Positions 51,354 through 63,834 of a DNA stretch of 64,000 nt are shown here, piece after piece. The first letter of the stretch is position 1. Each line of letters opens with the position of its first letter. The notes under the pieces are model-generated. The model was not told the DNA's origin, made no database searches, and worked only from the letters and a program-made list of their open reading frames with translations. This DNA is from a virus: IMG/VR virus record IMGVR_UViG_3300028394_000059, positions 22,785 through 86,784 of that record, one strand, 5' to 3'. The translations under genes were made by a program, and so were the position numbers.

Positions 51354-51899
51354 ATGAGTATAAAATCCTTTAATGAATTTACCGAAGAAATTGTTAACGA
51401 AAGTGATGTTTATGGTGCTACCGGTAAAACTAAATTTAGTAGATGGTTAAGAAACGTAAATTCCAGAATTAAGCAAGAAATGGGTGATAGCTATTATTCT
51501 AAATATTATGATGATCATAATGACCCATTCAGGACTGCTAAAATGGCAACCAATCTTATACCAAACACTGTTAGATTAATAGCAGGTGCAGGTGCAGCTA
51601 TAGCGGATTTCTTTTCAAAGGGTGATAACAGGGACAGCTTCTCTAAATTGTCCCAATCGGAGCTTAGTGGAAAGAAAAAAGAGGTTATTGACAAATGGGA
51701 GACTGATAACATTGCCAATAAGAAAGTTACTGAAGCTGATGCAGAGAAATTCTATAAATCGGGAGTTCTCAAAGGTAAAAAATATTTTGGTAAAGAATAT
51801 GATCCTGCAAATCCTAAGAATAAAGACGAGGAGATGTACACTGATTACGTTAATGATGTAATGGAGCGTTACCATAAAAAAATGGGAAAGAATGCCTAA
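51354..51899 (+). CDS. Capsid-targeting-tag protein of unknown function
   Basis: The 181-residue protein begins MSIKSFNEFTEEIVNES, one of the eight related N-termini in the window, then turns into a basic region (KTKFSRWLRNVNSRIKQEMG). A short hydrophobic stretch rich in Ala follows (IPNTVRLIAGAGAAIADFF, about residues 68-86) and then a Lys-rich C-terminus. The hydrophobic stretch could be a membrane-interacting helix. No family is recognised. It is the first gene after a GATATATA box and overlaps the nucleotidyltransferase gene by 8 nt. Confidence 0.55.
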   Translation: MSIKSFNEFTEEIVNESDVYGATGKTKFSRWLRNVNSRIKQEMGDSYYSKYYDDHNDPFRTAKMATNLIPNTVRLIAGAGAAIADFFSKGDNRDSFSKLSQSELSGKKKEVIDKWETDNIANKKVTEADAEKFYKSGVLKGKKYFGKEYDPANPKNKDEEMYTDYVNDVMERYHKKMGKNA

Positions 51900-52827
51900 T
51901 AAGGTACTAGATTTTAATAGATTTGTTATGCTTTTCGAAGGTGGAGCAGCTATTAAAAGTGCAAGAAGAATTCGTGAGGATGAATTTCCAAAGACACTTG
52001 AAAGCATAAAATCTATATTGTTTCCTATATTGGGAATAGATCAAACAAAAGCTAACGATCAGTACATCATAATAGGAAGCATAGGTAAAAAGAAAAATCC
52101 TGATGACACATCCGGAGATCTTGATCTTGGTATTGATAGTTCATGGTTTGCTAGAGAACATCAGATAACTGTTAAGGATGTTGCATCTCATATTAAGGGC
52201 TTATTGGATGGTGAGAAGCTGTCTGATGCACTTGGATTTGTCCCGGAGATAAATTATCTTAGAGGTTTAAATATAGTTAGTATAGGATGGCCAGTTCAGG
52301 GAGATCCTAATAAAGGTATGGTTCAGCTCGATCTAATACCGATTTCCAGCATGGAATGGGCAGAATTTATATACTACTCACCCAACTATAAGATAGATGA
52401 AAGTAAATATAAGTCAGCACATCGTAATTGGCTTCTAGCAGCAATATTATCTGAAAGAAGACAGATATTAGATAGTGACGAGAATGGTGACGTTATGGAC
52501 TATGATACGCCGGTTTTAATACTAAGTGACGGTCTATTCTGGCACACGAAGTCATATAAAGGGAAGTTGAAAGCAAGATTAAAGAATGCAAAGAAAATCG
52601 AAGGTAGTGAAAGATTTGTAACCAGAAATCCGCATGAGTTTGTAAAATTTGCACTCGGTAGGGAATATGATATAAATGACGTTAAAACTTTTGAGGATCT
52701 TTTAAGAATCATAGAATCGGATGATTTTGATTTACATGGCAGACTATCTGCCATAATCGAAAAATTCAAAGAATATTTAACTAGAGCAAATTTAGAGATA
52801 CCATCCGAAATAAATCAGTTATCTTAA
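51892..52827 (+). CDS. Pol-beta-superfamily nucleotidyltransferase with capsid-targeting-like tag
   Basis: In 311 residues the nucleotidyltransferase core is clear: GSIGKKKNPDDTSGDLDLGI at 62-81, giving the G-S...D-x-D motif (Asp76, Asp78), and the third acidic residue in VQLDLIPI (Asp147). The C-terminal half is helical with a WLLAAILSERRQIL segment, as in CCA-adding and toxin-type transferases. Residues 1-18 (MPNKVLDFNRFVMLFEGG) fit the tag pattern with an L-F-E-G cleavage-like site. Members of this superfamily add nucleotides to RNA or AMP to proteins. Being next to an RNA ligase-like gene favours RNA as substrate; a head-packaged toxin-like modifier is the alternative. Confidence 0.7.
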   Translation: MPNKVLDFNRFVMLFEGGAAIKSARRIREDEFPKTLESIKSILFPILGIDQTKANDQYIIIGSIGKKKNPDDTSGDLDLGIDSSWFAREHQITVKDVASHIKGLLDGEKLSDALGFVPEINYLRGLNIVSIGWPVQGDPNKGMVQLDLIPISSMEWAEFIYYSPNYKIDESKYKSAHRNWLLAAILSERRQILDSDENGDVMDYDTPVLILSDGLFWHTKSYKGKLKARLKNAKKIEGSERFVTRNPHEFVKFALGREYDINDVKTFEDLLRIIESDDFDLHGRLSAIIEKFKEYLTRANLEIPSEINQLS

Positions 52828-52851: not shown

Positions 52852-54903
52852 ATGTCAGGAATAAGTCATTTATATGATATCTATAATAAGAAGGGGAAGG
52901 AATTCATAGACAACCTATTTAATTCTTATGTGACCGTTAATGAAAAGATGGACGGATCTGCATTTGTGTTTGATAGAGACTTAGAAACTGGAAGATTTAA
53001 TTTTTATAAGAGGGATCAAAGAAACCCAATAACATTAGTGGACAGAACACTGATGAAGTATTATGAAAAGCCGATACAATACATCGAATCTTTACCTCCA
53101 CATATTCTGAAAGAAATTCCTAGAGGATGGAAATTTGGATTGGAGTATTTTTCTAATACACAGCCAGTTGAAATAGCATATGATAGACTTCCTAAAAACA
53201 ATCTTATTCTTTCCTATATACATACAAAAAGTGATGATGGTAAACCATCAAGCACGATACAGAACAAAGAGAAGCTTGATACTTGGGCGGATCTTATCGG
53301 AGTAGAAAGACCACCAATCATTTTCCAGGGTTTATTATCCGAAGAGCAAAAAGAAAGCATATCGGATTTTCTTAGAACACCTTTCGAGGATCTAGTTAAT
53401 GAATACAGGACAAGAAGCTTTGTTAGATATATTATTGGGGTGCTTAATCCTGAAGCTAAGGAGAGCGCTTTAAATGCGGACCTGGATAAGCCTATTGAAG
53501 GTATTGTATTTAGATTTGGCGAGGAAGATTCCGATTCCGAGCCTATATTATCTAAGATGGTTGATCCTGTTTTTACAGAGATGGCTAAGGAGAAAGCTAA
53601 AAAAAGATTCACGGAAAAACCTAGTGATTTTCTGGGTATAACTGTACTTGATGTAATGAACTTCATATTGGAAAGAGGAGTTGATAGCTTTAATGTTGTT
53701 GGTGATACTGAAGATCAAAGATACATCTCATTCATATCCGATGTTTTTGCTAAATTCCTAGACGAGAACGGATACAAATATAAAGGTGCTGATTTCCAGG
53801 AGCCTGATTATTTAAAGAAAGATGAGTTTAGATTGAATAAACCTCTAATAAAGGATAGGAGGGTTTTAAGTTATCTTGAGTCTGATGATTCTTATGAGTC
53901 GTTATTTAAGCTTATCCTAAATTCATTCAGAAAAATAAAGAAAAGAGCTGGTGGTATAATAACTGCTGGTATAATAGACCAATTCAATTTATTGGTCGCT
54001 GATATAGAAAGAGCAGTTTCGGCAAAGAAAACTGCAAAGATACAGGAGTCTAGCATGCCATCATTTATGGATTTCAAAAGAAACAATCTTAGCTCCAAAA
54101 AAGTTGAATACACAACATCCGAAAGTGAGGACATGGCTAAGGTGGATGAAGAATATGATCCTTTCTATTCTTACAATGAGTTTATATCAAAACTAGAAAC
54201 TATAGACACCAAGGATAAACCAAACGTTGAAATAACGGAGGATGAAAAACCAGAGGGGAAAGAGGAAATAAAATTGGAGGACGTTAATCTTGTAATAGGT
54301 AGATTTCAGCCATTTCATAACGGACATCTAAAGATGGTTAAGAAAATGATGGAAAAGAACAATCTGCCTAGCATAATTGCAGTGGTTCATCCGGGACACA
54401 ATAAATCTGGTAAATCTCCATTCAACAAAGATCTTGTATCAAAATACATGGAAAATGTTGTTAAGGAAAGCTCAGGCAAGATACAGGGATTTTTTATGAT
54501 AGACAGAGGATTGCTTGGTGTTATTTATGGCAAGTCTAAAGAGCTTGGTTATCTACCTAAAGCAATAGCTGCTGGTGATGATAAGATAGAGGACTACAAA
54601 AAACAATCAGATTACCTTAAAAAAGCCGGCGGTGATTTTCCCGATGATGTGGAAATAATACAGACCTCCAGATCTGGCAGCGGTACCGAGGTAAGGGAAA
54701 AATTAGCTGAAGAAGACTTTCTTGGTTTTAAAAAATTAGTTCCTCCCGGTGTTTCTGCATTCTATAATCAACTACTATCATCCCAGAGAGGCAAAGATAT
54801 AAAGGAATCTATTGTTATTAATTATCTAAATGAATATGGCGACGAGAAAACTGTAGAGGAAGTTAATAATGAAATAGAAGAAATTAAAAATAACGAACAA
54901 TAA
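52852..54903 (+). CDS. Fusion of ATP-dependent RNA-ligase-like domain and NMN-adenylyltransferase-like domain
   Basis: The 683-residue protein has two enzymatic parts. The N-terminal part shows covalent nucleotidyltransferase motifs: I, EKMDG at 31-35 with Lys32 as the likely adenylated residue; III, WKFGLEYF at 93-100; IV, EGIVFRF at 216-222; V, SKMVDP with Lys235. The C-terminal part (from about 477) opens NLVIGRFQPFHNGHL, the H-x-G-H signature of nucleotidylyltransferases, and ends with an SRSGSGTEVREKL motif matching the I-S-x-T-x-x-R position of NadM/NMNAT enzymes. The linker at 400-465 is acidic and contains IQES-SMPSFMDFKRN and YSYNEFISKLE, which resemble the N-terminal tags. It could seal RNA while making NAD. 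Confidence 0.75.
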   Translation: MSGISHLYDIYNKKGKEFIDNLFNSYVTVNEKMDGSAFVFDRDLETGRFNFYKRDQRNPITLVDRTLMKYYEKPIQYIESLPPHILKEIPRGWKFGLEYFSNTQPVEIAYDRLPKNNLILSYIHTKSDDGKPSSTIQNKEKLDTWADLIGVERPPIIFQGLLSEEQKESISDFLRTPFEDLVNEYRTRSFVRYIIGVLNPEAKESALNADLDKPIEGIVFRFGEEDSDSEPILSKMVDPVFTEMAKEKAKKRFTEKPSDFLGITVLDVMNFILERGVDSFNVVGDTEDQRYISFISDVFAKFLDENGYKYKGADFQEPDYLKKDEFRLNKPLIKDRRVLSYLESDDSYESLFKLILNSFRKIKKRAGGIITAGIIDQFNLLVADIERAVSAKKTAKIQESSMPSFMDFKRNNLSSKKVEYTTSESEDMAKVDEEYDPFYSYNEFISKLETIDTKDKPNVEITEDEKPEGKEEIKLEDVNLVIGRFQPFHNGHLKMVKKMMEKNNLPSIIAVVHPGHNKSGKSPFNKDLVSKYMENVVKESSGKIQGFFMIDRGLLGVIYGKSKELGYLPKAIAAGDDKIEDYKKQSDYLKKAGGDFPDDVEIIQTSRSGSGTEVREKLAEEDFLGFKKLVPPGVSAFYNQLLSSQRGKDIKESIVINYLNEYGDEKTVEEVNNEIEEIKNNEQ

Positions 54904-54904
54904 A

Positions 54905-55450
54905 ATGACAAAAATTGTAGAATCATTCGATCAATTTATTGGTAGAATGAACGAATCTGACGGATTTGGTACATCCCCCTTTCTATTAGAAAAAATCGGT
55001 GATGTATACCACTATTTCTTTAATATAGATAAAGAGAAAAGTGACAATCAGAGTGGATTTCATCTAATTGTAGGTAAATATTCGGATCATGAGGTAATAG
55101 AAGGTCCAAAGAATTCCTACTGTGTATTAACAATAAATCAAATGTCACCGGAGCTTATAGATGATATCGCTGTTGACAAGAAGGAAATACCCCAAACTAA
55201 TTCTGATAAGTTTAAGATGGAAGGCAACGAGATATCTAGACTTATGGAAACTGTATTTAAGTGCGTTAATAGCTATTTGGAAGCAAATCCAAAGATTAGT
55301 AGAATGTATGATGAAATGCAAGATAATCTTGAATTTTCTGGTAAGGGCGAGTATATGGAGTATATGAAGTCCATAGCAATATCACAATTAGGAAGTAATT
55401 GGTCAATTCAGAGTGGTTCTAGTAAAAAATCAATTCTTATAAGCAGATAA
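54905..55450 (+). CDS. Capsid-targeting-tag protein of unknown function
   Basis: The 181-residue protein begins MTKIVESFDQFIGRMNESDG, a good match to the tag pattern (F-D-x-F then M-N-E-S), one base after the ligase fusion stop. The rest is mixed: a GSDG-x-F start, VYHYFFNIDKEKS, FHLIVGKYSD strands, a helical ISRLMETVFKCVNSYLEAN segment and a short Ser/Lys C-terminus. I do not recognise a family and see no catalytic motif. It is the last gene of the 51.35-55.45 kb operon. Confidence 0.55.
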   Translation: MTKIVESFDQFIGRMNESDGFGTSPFLLEKIGDVYHYFFNIDKEKSDNQSGFHLIVGKYSDHEVIEGPKNSYCVLTINQMSPELIDDIAVDKKEIPQTNSDKFKMEGNEISRLMETVFKCVNSYLEANPKISRMYDEMQDNLEFSGKGEYMEYMKSIAISQLGSNWSIQSGSSKKSILISR

Positions 55451-56186: not shown

Positions 56187-56194
56187 GATATATA
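56187..56194 (+). promoter_or_regulatory. GATATATA late-promoter-like box
   Basis: Preceded by TTGT, directly after the terminator and 19 nt before the CHAP-type gene. This terminator-then-box order is the cleanest example in the window. Confidence 0.6.
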
Positions 56195-56213: not shown

Positions 56214-56981
56214 ATGTCCAATATTTTATCATTTAATCAATATATATTCGAGGGTAAGGGAGATGCATTTGATCCTTTAATTAATGGTTTTTACAATTCT
56301 ATTAAATCAACGCAGGTTGAGGAATCACCAAGGGGATCCAATAGAGGTCCTAATATTGAACCACTTCAGAAAGGGGTTGGTGTAAGTCCTGGTGATCCTT
56401 GGTGTGCAGCATTTATATATGATGTTTTAATCAAATCCGGATTTTCACAGAATATAAAAAATCAAATACCCAAGGATGCAGCGGTTAGGTTTCACTGGGC
56501 AAATTCAGGAGGTAAAAAGATTGAATATAAGCCTAATATGGATATTAATTCTATCCTTCCCGGGATGGCATTTTTTTATTTAAGTAAAGACGGAAAGACT
56601 GGTGGATATCCTGGTAGCGGTCATACCGGAATAATCCTATCTGTAAATAATGTAGATAAAACATGGACTTCAGTAGAAGGTAATGCTAACCCATTAGATG
56701 GAAGCAGGGAAGGATATGGTACATTCATAGTAACAAGAAAACTCTCGGATCCAAGCATATCGAAAGATCGTAAGGATCACCCGCCGAAGTTGCTAGGTTT
56801 TATAGATTACTTTGCTCCATATAGAAATACCGCGGGATTCACGAAAGCGCTTACATCGAAACTGAAATCTTTAACTAATGAACTATTACCAAAAACCAAT
56901 AATGAAATAGCTTATCTCAAAGCAAAACCTAATGTTCTGAAAGATTACGAACAAAATTATAAAAATAGAAATAAATTATAA
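56214..56981 (+). CDS. CHAP-type peptidoglycan hydrolase (endolysin or virion lysin) with capsid-targeting-like tag
   Basis: In 255 residues a CHAP/NlpC-like catalytic domain is visible: SNRGPNIEPLQKGVGVSPGD leads to DPWCAAFIYDVL with Cys64. GSGHTGIILSV contains His137, and SVEGNAN gives the third polar site. The NRGP...WCAAF arrangement is common in small endolysins and amidase-type hydrolases of Bacteroidota and their phages. Residues 1-15 (MSNILSFNQYIFEGK) fit the tag pattern with an I-F-E-G site, so the enzyme may be packaged and cut rather than, or as well as, acting in lysis. The C-terminal ~60 residues are basic and helical, possibly cell-wall binding. There is no signal peptide. Confidence 0.7.
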   Translation: MSNILSFNQYIFEGKGDAFDPLINGFYNSIKSTQVEESPRGSNRGPNIEPLQKGVGVSPGDPWCAAFIYDVLIKSGFSQNIKNQIPKDAAVRFHWANSGGKKIEYKPNMDINSILPGMAFFYLSKDGKTGGYPGSGHTGIILSVNNVDKTWTSVEGNANPLDGSREGYGTFIVTRKLSDPSISKDRKDHPPKLLGFIDYFAPYRNTAGFTKALTSKLKSLTNELLPKTNNEIAYLKAKPNVLKDYEQNYKNRNKL

Positions 56982-61311: not shown

Positions 61312-61319
61312 GATATATA
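61312..61319 (+). promoter_or_regulatory. GATATATA late-promoter-like box
   Basis: Located 13 nt after the dnaK terminator and 21 nt before the next ATG. Confidence 0.55.
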
Positions 61320-61340: not shown

Positions 61341-62318
61341 ATGAAACATTTAATACATCTAAGTCTTTTTGAAAGCCAAAATTCAGAACCCGTTTGCGAT
61401 TACTATGATGATAAAAAACCAGATAGTGGATATTTTGATTTTTGGAGTGAATTCAAGAATCTCAATCCTGAGCAAAAAAAAGCTAAACTTGAGAAAATAA
61501 AACAGGAGATATCTGAATTATTTACACAGAACAAAAAAGAATATATTGACTGGTACTCACACCCGGATACTGTCAGTAAATTCACTAATGCCGAGCAATC
61601 GGTTAGAAAAAATTTGATTTCTTCACTCATACCTAATTTTAAAATTAAGCTAAATACATCTGCGGATCCGAAGGCATCTGAAATGGGAAAAAAATCCTGG
61701 GGATATTGCTCACCCGAAAAAGATCCATTTACCTCATACCTCAATCTTTATAATTTTTATAACGGAAAAGCACAGGGTAATAAAAGCATAAAAGACACAA
61801 TCAAACATGAGATGGCGCATTTAATTGATGGATTTCTTAAGAAAAATAAAGTGTCAACATATATCCCAACACACAGAAGTAATCTTTCTCAGGAGGAATA
61901 TAGCAGAATTTATCTTATAAACGATCGGGACACTTTCTCCCGTTTGAACATTCTTCGTGGTGTAATTAATGCTGGACCTGTGGATACGGGGAAACAGTTA
62001 TTGGACAAGTTTATTAGCGCTTATAAAAGCGGAAAAATAGGATCGGAAAGCTTTACTTTTAATGGGGCAGTGGACAGGGAAAGAAATATTCATATCTTGG
62101 TCATGAAACCTAAATACGCTGAAAAGGGATCCTCATTAGAAACCGTAAAATCAGTTTATAACTTAATGACTGCTAAAAAAGCAATTATGGTTGGGGGCAA
62201 GGAAAACTATAATATAGAGCAATTATTTTCTAATTTTGCAATCCTTAAAAATGGTAATATTTATGTTAATATGAGTGAAATTGCACAGGTTAATTCAACA
62301 AGTAAGAGTATGACTTAG
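61341..62318 (+). CDS. Zinc metallopeptidase-like protein (HExxH) with capsid-targeting-like tag
   Basis: The 325-residue protein contains TIKHEMAHLIDGF, with His156, Glu157 and His160 forming the gluzincin/metzincin HExxH site; the third ligand is not obvious. Residues 35-100 are helical and Lys-rich, and the C-terminal third is mixed. There is no signal peptide. Residues 1-15 (MKHLIHLSLFESQNS) fit the window's tag pattern with an L-F-E-S site. The family is not recognised beyond the metal motif. It could process phage or host proteins after injection, or act on the cell envelope. It has its own late box and stands alone. Confidence 0.6.
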   Translation: MKHLIHLSLFESQNSEPVCDYYDDKKPDSGYFDFWSEFKNLNPEQKKAKLEKIKQEISELFTQNKKEYIDWYSHPDTVSKFTNAEQSVRKNLISSLIPNFKIKLNTSADPKASEMGKKSWGYCSPEKDPFTSYLNLYNFYNGKAQGNKSIKDTIKHEMAHLIDGFLKKNKVSTYIPTHRSNLSQEEYSRIYLINDRDTFSRLNILRGVINAGPVDTGKQLLDKFISAYKSGKIGSESFTFNGAVDRERNIHILVMKPKYAEKGSSLETVKSVYNLMTAKKAIMVGGKENYNIEQLFSNFAILKNGNIYVNMSEIAQVNSTSKSMT

Positions 62319-62324
62319 ATAGTA

Positions 62325-62332
62325 GATATATA
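62325..62332 (+). promoter_or_regulatory. GATATATA late-promoter-like box
   Basis: Six nt after the previous stop and 23 nt before the ferritin-like gene. It is followed by AGGAACA. Confidence 0.55.
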
Positions 62333-62355
62333 AGGAACAAAATAATCATTAAATA

Positions 62356-62928
62356 ATGAGAACATTTAAACACTTCAAAGACAAAACCAACGAGGGTATT
62401 GAGATTGAAAGCATAGAAATAGGATCAGCTCCTGAAATAGTAAATCCTAAGACATTATCATCCGATATAGTTGAAGTGTTTGAAAAAAGACTAGCTGACG
62501 AGTACACTGCACATTACACATATAGAAATGCAGCTAACTGGTGTAGAAACGCAAACTACAAAAAAGCAGCAGCTTATTTCGAAGGTGAAGCAGCGGAGGA
62601 ATTGGAACATGCTAAGGGCTTACAAGATTACCTAACTCAATGGAACATATTACCACAAATACCATCAGTGAGTGTACCAAATGATTTTGATTCACTAGTT
62701 GGTATTATTGACGAGGCTTATGATATTGAATACAAATTATTATTGGAATACTCAGCTATGCAACATGCGCTTTGTGATGTTCATCCTGCAACATTTAACT
62801 TCATTCAGAAATATGTTGATATTCAAAATGAGTCAGTTGGAGGTTATTCGGATCTTTTGAATGCACTCCAGCTTATTAATATAAATAGCAAGCTGGATCT
62901 TTTGTTTTTCGAGGAAAGATATTTCTAA
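62356..62928 (+). CDS. Ferritin-like diiron protein with N-terminal tag
   Basis: In 190 residues, the four-helix ferritin pattern runs from about residue 35. Helix A contains LADEYTAHYTYRNAANW (Glu49), and helix B YFEGEAAEELEHAKGL carries the ferroxidase E-x-x-H (Glu82, His85). Helix C IDEAYDIEYKLL provides Glu120 or Glu125, and helix D QKYVDIQNESVGGYSDLL has Gln157/Glu159. These match the non-haem bacterial ferritin centre. The ~33-residue N-terminal extension is unusual for ferritins and starts MRTFKHFKDKTNEG, another member of the tag family. It may store or carry iron or protect DNA from oxidation. The C-terminus ends FFEERYF. It has its own promoter box and terminator. Confidence 0.78.
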   Translation: MRTFKHFKDKTNEGIEIESIEIGSAPEIVNPKTLSSDIVEVFEKRLADEYTAHYTYRNAANWCRNANYKKAAAYFEGEAAEELEHAKGLQDYLTQWNILPQIPSVSVPNDFDSLVGIIDEAYDIEYKLLLEYSAMQHALCDVHPATFNFIQKYVDIQNESVGGYSDLLNALQLININSKLDLLFFEERYF

Positions 62929-62948
62929 ACAACAATTAAATTATTTAG

Positions 62949-62983
62949 TAAAGCCGGGCCACAAAGCTCGGCTTTATTTTTTT
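62949..62983 (+). terminator. Rho-independent terminator after the ferritin-like gene
   Basis: A 10-bp stem, TAAAGCCGGG with CTCGGCTTTA (one G-T pair), an 8-nt loop and a run of seven T. Confidence 0.85.
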
Positions 62984-63021: not shown

Positions 63022-63834
63022 ATGCCAGAAGGACCAGAAGTAAGAAGAATGGCTGAGGGATTAGCCAAAAGAATAGTTGGTAAAGATCTAACTGAGGCTG
63101 AAATACTCGGGGGGAAATGGTTAAAGAAAGAGCCTACTGGAATTCAGACTATTAGAAAGCACCTAGCACCAGGACCGCTCCGTGTGGAATGGGTTAGAGT
63201 TAAAGGCAAGTTTATCTACGCCAAAATAGGTGATCTATTTATGTGGAATACACTAGGCATGAGCGGAGGCTGGAGGGATCTTAGAGGTAAGCATTCACAT
63301 TTTGTTCTTAGATTTTCTGATTCAAGTGAAGTCTTCTTCGAGGATGTAAGAAGATTTGGTAACATTTCTTTCCATTCGGATCATGGGGAGATACAGAAAA
63401 AATTAAATGATGTGGGTCCAGATATGCTAAACGTCGAAGTTCCTTTTTCTGAGTTCTATGCTAGATTAGCAAAATCACCGAATAAGAATATTTGTAAAGC
63501 CATTATGGATCAAAAAGTTATCTCAGGGGTAGGTAACTACATAAAATCCGAGGCACTATATAGAGCTGGCATTTCACCCCACTTAAAGATCTCAGATATC
63601 CCACATGATAGAATGGAGAAGCTATGCGAATGGATAAAGATCATAATTAAAACCTCTTATGAACAGGGAGGAGCAACACTAGCCACTTATACCGACATGG
63701 ACAATAACCACGGTGACTTTGTATTTTCTTTCCATGTTTACCGTAAGGATAAAGATCCATTGGGTAACAATATACTTCATGAAGTTACTGAGGATGGTAG
63801 AATGACACATTGGGTTCCAGAAATGCAAAGCTAA
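63022..63834 (+). CDS. Fpg/Nei-family DNA glycosylase, zincless-finger type
   Basis: The 270-residue protein has the N-terminal PEGPEVRR with catalytic Pro2 and Glu3 (the initiator Met is removed), a VKGKFIYAKIGD strand with the conserved Lys, FEDVRRFGNISF, and the helix-two-turn-helix ISGVGNYIKSEALYRAGISP. The C-terminal finger has hairpin length but no Cys: VYRKDKDPLGNNILHEVTED is followed by GRMTHWVPEMQ, like the zincless finger of NEIL1-type enzymes. It removes oxidised bases and nicks the abasic site. The stop overlaps the start of another glycosylase gene. The preceding 93-nt gap holds the terminator above and an AT-rich leader. Confidence 0.88.
   Translation: MPEGPEVRRMAEGLAKRIVGKDLTEAEILGGKWLKKEPTGIQTIRKHLAPGPLRVEWVRVKGKFIYAKIGDLFMWNTLGMSGGWRDLRGKHSHFVLRFSDSSEVFFEDVRRFGNISFHSDHGEIQKKLNDVGPDMLNVEVPFSEFYARLAKSPNKNICKAIMDQKVISGVGNYIKSEALYRAGISPHLKISDIPHDRMEKLCEWIKIIIKTSYEQGGATLATYTDMDNNHGDFVFSFHVYRKDKDPLGNNILHEVTEDGRMTHWVPEMQS

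Follow-up and report, generated by a model that had tools for sequence, protein, structure and literature searches.

In phage T4, ten residues suffice to target a protein to the capsid, with the targeting information lying mostly in residues 4 and 7; gp21 cuts after L/I-X-E, and a tag left uncut still targets (PMC9026906). Foreign tagged fusions as large as beta-galactosidase have been both packaged and delivered by this phage (PMC9026906). Ferritin has been linked to phage particles from another direction: in the virion proteome of the Vi01-like phage Sajous1, gp217 was called a ‘ferritin’ on the basis of Phyre, and was tied to tails and the Ferrojan Horse hypothesis (PMC10892097). Vi01 itself fails as a precedent, since this relative of Sajous1 has no Pfam ferritin match. 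A search of the PMC open-access subset found no report of a head-packaged ferritin.

The locus described here lies in a 64,000-nucleotide stretch (‘the window’) of an 86,784-base IMG/VR contig (G000), whose major head protein is closest, at about 45% identity, to those of a 462-kb uncultured phage and of Prevotella Lak phages. The host group of this large uncultivated phage is probably Bacteroidota, and the phage resembles the moraphages, DnaK-bearing jumbo phages of aquatic Bacteroidota (PMC12619734).

A ferritin with a complete ferroxidase site

The gene of interest and the parts of its product are as follows.

62356..62928, plus strand: ferritin gene, 190 aa, N-terminally tagged (ORF list, Pfam, model, alignment)
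62356..62394, plus strand: capsid-targeting-like tag, residues 1-13, MRTFKHFKDKTNE; aromatics at 4 and 7 as in T4 IPI, IPII and IPIII; predicted cut after E13
62395..62454, plus strand: disordered linker, residues 14-33 (pLDDT <50 for residues 1-24; block mean 84 by residues 31-40)
62455..62925, plus strand: ferritin fold, residues 34-190 (AlphaFold, pLDDT mostly >90); helices 36-65, 69-95, 114-138 and 144-171, short helix E 179-189
62500..62502, plus strand: E49, ferroxidase ligand (human E27, FtnA E17), invariant
62521..62523, plus strand: Y56, conserved tyrosine adjoining the site (human Y34), invariant
62599..62610, plus strand: E82 and H85, ferroxidase ligands (human E62, H65), invariant
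62728..62730, plus strand: E125, ferroxidase ligand (human E107), invariant where the sequence is complete
62824..62826, plus strand: Q157 (human Q141), from the alignment with FtnA and human H ferritin

The first-pass annotation, made from the letters alone, had called this product a ferritin-like protein, and the identification stands: Pfam Ferritin (PF00210) matches it at E 9.6e-18, its nearest solved proteins are the bacterial non-heme ferritins (E 5e-18), and an AlphaFold model (mean pLDDT 84), for which 13 relatives were used along with the window protein, is a confident four-helix bundle with helix E, five helices in all. The model superposes on ferritin 3qz3 in Foldseek (E 2.2e-9, rmsd 1.4 A), with VIA Z of 22-23 against H-type and bacterial ferritins. 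The roughly 33 extra residues that the annotation saw at the front also agree with the model, which is disordered over residues 1-24 and confident from about residue 34. They are part of the protein: an in-frame stop (62350-62352) lies two codons 5' of the ATG, and the next in-frame start is a GTG at codon 41, within helix A; the start codon is thereby fixed, and the 33-residue extension is therefore translated. The sequence 5' of ferritin starts is A-rich, with no Shine-Dalgarno site evident, as is usual in Bacteroidota.

Glu49, Glu82 and His85 had been named as diiron-site residues. All three are present, and so are E125, Q157 and Y56; structure prediction, proposed at the time as a check, returned the fold with its diiron site complete rather than without it. 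Positions were assigned by alignment with E. coli FtnA and human H ferritin, both sequences having been checked against the PDB; in the human protein, the H-type ferroxidase centre consists of E27, Y34, E62, H65, E107 and Q141. Their phage counterparts E49, Y56, E82, H85, E125 and Q157 do not vary in any complete copy among 52 distinct phage ferritins, gaps occurring only in three truncated ones. Purifying selection on the core is strong (dN 0.06-0.10, dS saturated). Because the six site residues are invariant and the core is so strongly constrained, activity as a ferroxidase is very probable, as judged from sequence. Outside the centre, S160 occupies the position of A144 in human H ferritin and E130 in FtnA, and in the 52-sequence alignment the cavity glutamates of FtnA that form its third site (site C) and its nucleation site (E49 and E126 of FtnA) are not conserved across the phage family.

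Helix E of the model suggests assembly into a 24-mer cage. Dps was ruled out by that helix (179-189) and by the intra-subunit position of the iron site, and bacterioferritin by the absence of the haem-ligand Met from the E-M-x-H stretch of helix B, where the window protein reads E82-L83-E84-H85, L83 being invariant among the first 14 phage sequences. The protein is acidic (pI 4.4); therefore, unlike Dps, it is not expected to bind DNA.

The view that phage ferritins are uncommon holds for catalogued phages, with no match among 50,697 records even at E 5, but in IMG/VR ferritin relatives occupy 61 loci. When the family's conserved peptides were run once against 84,980 species genomes, a scan sensitive to close kin only, no cellular relative came up. 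In a tree of the ferritin core, a single group of 28 (support 87/87) contains every tagged copy, and none of the 21 phage rows outside it is tagged.

A tag shared with other genes of the phage group

The ferritin N-terminus (MRTFKHFKDKTNE/G, the slash here and below marking the predicted cut) begins with MRTFKHF, or in close relatives with MKTFKHF; that of T4 IPI (MKTFKEFTSTTTPVSTITE/A) starts MKTFKEF and is nearly the same. F4 and F7 stand at T4's key targeting positions. The predicted cut site, TNE/G, has T instead of I/L at P3, two residues before Glu13; some orthologues have INE or LNE there. Because of this P3 residue, cutting is less certain than targeting for the window ferritin, and trimming of the window copy may be inefficient.

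A search motif, made up of two aromatics with two residues between them and a later Glu with G, A, S or N after it, was written once tags had been seen; as a control on its specificity, 39 kb of T4 gave matches in 4 of 74 ORFs, three of them being IPI, IPII and IPIII. It is found well beyond chance in the phage group, as the annotation's mention of a shared tag would predict: in 34/616 ORFs of a 430-kb relative (G004; 9.6 expected from shuffles), in 8/70 of the contig's own (1.1 expected), and in 17 of 45 distinct ferritin N-termini (0.33 expected). A stricter form matches 90 of 1281 N-termini of the group against 6.9 expected, related contigs not being independent. P3 lies outside the search motif; I or L nevertheless occupies it in 59 of these 90 tagged proteins, as against 15% of shuffled matches, which is the gp21 rule.

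The tag extends to the surroundings of tagged ferritins. In the flanks of tagged-ferritin contigs 39/151 ORFs are tagged (3.8 expected), and in those of untagged-ferritin contigs 2/161 (2.3 expected); Fisher's test gives p 8e-12, related contigs again not being independent. Some contigs with intermediate N-termini were kept apart in this comparison (11/83 tagged, 1.9 expected), and two near-miss ferritins were counted as tagged. The 6.5-kb flanks of the window's closest relatives contain no tagged gene; therefore the association is one between groups, not one that holds contig by contig. Tagged genes and regulatory features of the window are as follows.

51354..52827, plus strand: two further tagged genes, MSIKSFNEFTEEIVNE/S and MPNKVLDFNRFVMLFE/G (tag motif)
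54905..55450, plus strand: further tagged gene, MTKIVESFDQFIGRMNE/S (tag motif)
56214..56981, plus strand: tagged gene with CHAP domain, endolysin-like, MSNILSFNQYIFE/G, with GATATATA at 56187 (domain match, motif)
61341..62318, plus strand: ORF adjoining ferritin, tag-related N-terminus MKHLIHLSLFE/S, HExxH motif (KHEMAHLID), no Pfam match, with GATATATA at 61312
62325..62332, plus strand: GATATATA, promoter-like element 31 nt before the ferritin ATG, common to virion, protease and tagged genes
62947..62978, plus strand: intrinsic terminator-like hairpin between the ferritin and Fpg genes
63022..63834, plus strand: Fpg/MutM-type DNA glycosylase, untagged (PF01149, 5e-17)

The product of 61341-62318 is a possible packaged metalloprotease, going by its motif. 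Genome-wide in G000 and G004, and at L015:2942-13340 and L008:4586-13022, the T4-like tagged family often forms long runs of adjacent genes (for example MKHIPSFNEFITE/A), and each genome likely encodes dozens of tagged head cargo proteins, if the motif is a guide. Some tagged genes carry envelope-type domains (CHAP, L,D-transpeptidase-like, OmpA), an odd cargo for a head: 56214-56981 in the window, L033:9604-10410 and L032:3451-4143. Two further observations concern enzymes: window positions 52852-54903 encode a 683-aa protein with a nucleotidyltransferase-like motif (GRFQPFHNGH), and a relative has a tagged cytidylyltransferase-like protein (L015:6208-6789).

The coding strand of the contig has 21 copies of the element GATATATA and the other strand none; 14/67 of the contig's genes have a copy at most 60 nt upstream, against 0.44 expected, and the distance to the start is usually 25-50 nt. 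Its sites in the window, which include 62325, 61312, 58049, 56187, 51328, 45349, 37446 and 16437, lie before virion-type and tagged genes. In G004 the element stands before 10 of the 17 genes that match the strict tag motif and before 51 of the remaining 593, the prohead protease among these; the reverse complement, as a control, gives 9 matches. By position and company, GATATATA looks like a late promoter. The T4 late promoter, TATAAATA, is not enriched in the window (16 against 13.7 expected).

An S77 (gp21-family) protease scores above the Pfam cut-off in four longer relatives; in G003 and G009 it is an ORF of 654 to 718 residues immediately 5' of the major head protein gene, and it has the same position in G004. 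This long ORF before the major head protein (650-720 residues; L045:5728-7692, L047:8884-11040 and L037:6176-8140) is perhaps a protease-scaffold fusion. The major head proteins have LNE/S or INE/N at the expected maturation site, and in G000, G003 and G004 the three genes that come after the head protein each begin with a tag or a tag-like sequence. A homing-endonuclease-like gene (phrog_3339; L016:2053-3852) lies directly 3' of the major head protein in G000. No prohead protease was found on the window contig; because that contig begins just before the head protein, the phage's own protease would lie off it.

Taken together, the sequence of the tag, the signature at its predicted cut, its regulatory setting and its distribution over the tree support reading it as a capsid targeting sequence of the T4 type.

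What a tagged ferritin might do

One way to understand this gene is as a T4-type internal head protein with a ferritin as cargo, which the sequence makes likely. Packaging of the ferritin in the phage head is, to judge from its tag, the step in which we have good confidence; size is no bar to it, as T4 packaged tagged beta-galactosidase. The best explanation as a whole, in which we have somewhat less confidence, runs as follows: a complete ferritin of the 24-mer type would be made late in infection; its T4-type N-terminal targeting sequence would carry it into the prohead; cutting after Glu13 by a gp21-family protease of the phage may then remove the tag; the mature ferritin, a cage of 24 x 20.2 kDa or about 485 kDa, would lie beside the DNA in the head; and, whether in the virion or upon entry, this cage would take up and oxidise Fe(II), which, we would guess, prevents DNA-damaging radicals. 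That protection of DNA is the purpose, given packaging, is a tentative proposal; the present results fit it and the supply of iron to the phage's class I RNR equally, and we only lean towards keeping Fe(II) away from DNA. The strongest form of the idea is that an active, possibly iron-loaded cage shares the capsid with DNA by way of the T4-type tag, as one of dozens of tagged cargoes, so that the virion carries an iron-redox enzyme; to this we give a little less than an even chance.

The neighbouring Fpg gene might have suggested a general oxidative-repair operon. This was ruled out: Fpg adjoins the ferritin in the closest relatives (L002-L004) but not in L005 and beyond, and because the terminator-like hairpin follows the ferritin gene, Fpg is probably a separate unit.

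A second perspective supposes that the ferritin works only inside the infected cell, as an auxiliary metabolic gene for iron, the tag being present and packaging nil or slight. Relatives outside the tagged clade carry the same ferritin without a tag, so that a ferritin must be useful without packaging, and the cleavage site of the window copy is imperfect. Within the tagged clade, however, the aromatic pair and NE followed by G, A or S are kept, with variable spacing, while the linker diverges, and the promoter-like element is one common to virion genes. We consider this account unlikely, though the best placed of the alternatives to a packaged ferritin acting in the head.

Hardly less likely than this is a third perspective, which accepts packaging and places the action in the new host: the ferritin would be delivered with the DNA, to serve as an iron source for a class I diiron RNR or as an Fe(II) sink against oxidative damage. 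The T4 tag family does mark host-entering proteins, and the beta-galactosidase fusions were delivered as well as packaged (PMC9026906); moreover, four relatives have a gene for the small subunit of a class I RNR, the copy in G003 lying about 5 kb from the ferritin. But a folded 12-nm cage cannot pass a tail tube, which makes passage of the ferritin as a cage unlikely, and subunits that unfolded would lose any iron core; RNR is also common in large phages, and no conserved linkage between it and the ferritin emerged. The least probable idea, that the tag is some other sorting or assembly peptide of this phage group and like T4's by chance, draws on the envelope-type domains noted above, and is opposed by the match to IPI, by the unselected I/L-X-E signature, by the same NE/S site in the major head protein and by the tagged genes directly after it.

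A further implication of the packaged-ferritin reading, if it is true, is that no earlier ferritin, as far as we have found, has had its way into a phage head defined. Iron in phage particles would then move from tail-fibre speculation to direct test on heads, by iron content and ferritin peptides; and a large tagged-cargo system would exist in huge phages of probable Bacteroidota hosts, with head contents predictable from sequence.

Comparison with known systems

The window ferritin shares with T4 IPI, IPII and IPIII (MKTFKEF / MKTYQEF) the aromatics at 4 and 7 and, as predicted cut site, a Glu followed by a small residue, and its relatives encode a protease of the gp21 family. It differs in its cargo, an acidic ferritin of about 485 kDa if assembled, and in having no I/L at P3; T4, moreover, has its tag on three genes, whereas this phage group has it on tens.

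Among ferritins, the bacterial non-heme type (E. coli FtnA, and those of Vibrio cholerae and Helicobacter pylori) has the same fold, helix E and ligands (E/E/H/E/Q and Tyr); compared with FtnA, the phage protein has 28% identity, a 33-residue N-terminal extension and S at the E130 position. H-type ferritins (human FTH1, mitochondrial ferritin) have the same ferroxidase set and a small residue at 144, but only about 20% identity and no tag. Phage Dps has in common with the window protein the ferritin superfamily, iron oxidation and the idea of DNA protection; its iron site lies at the dimer interface and it has no helix E, in contrast to the intra-subunit site and helix E here. Sajous1 gp217 is alike in the claim of a ferritin in a phage particle; the window protein is a real ferritin with a probable address of the head type.
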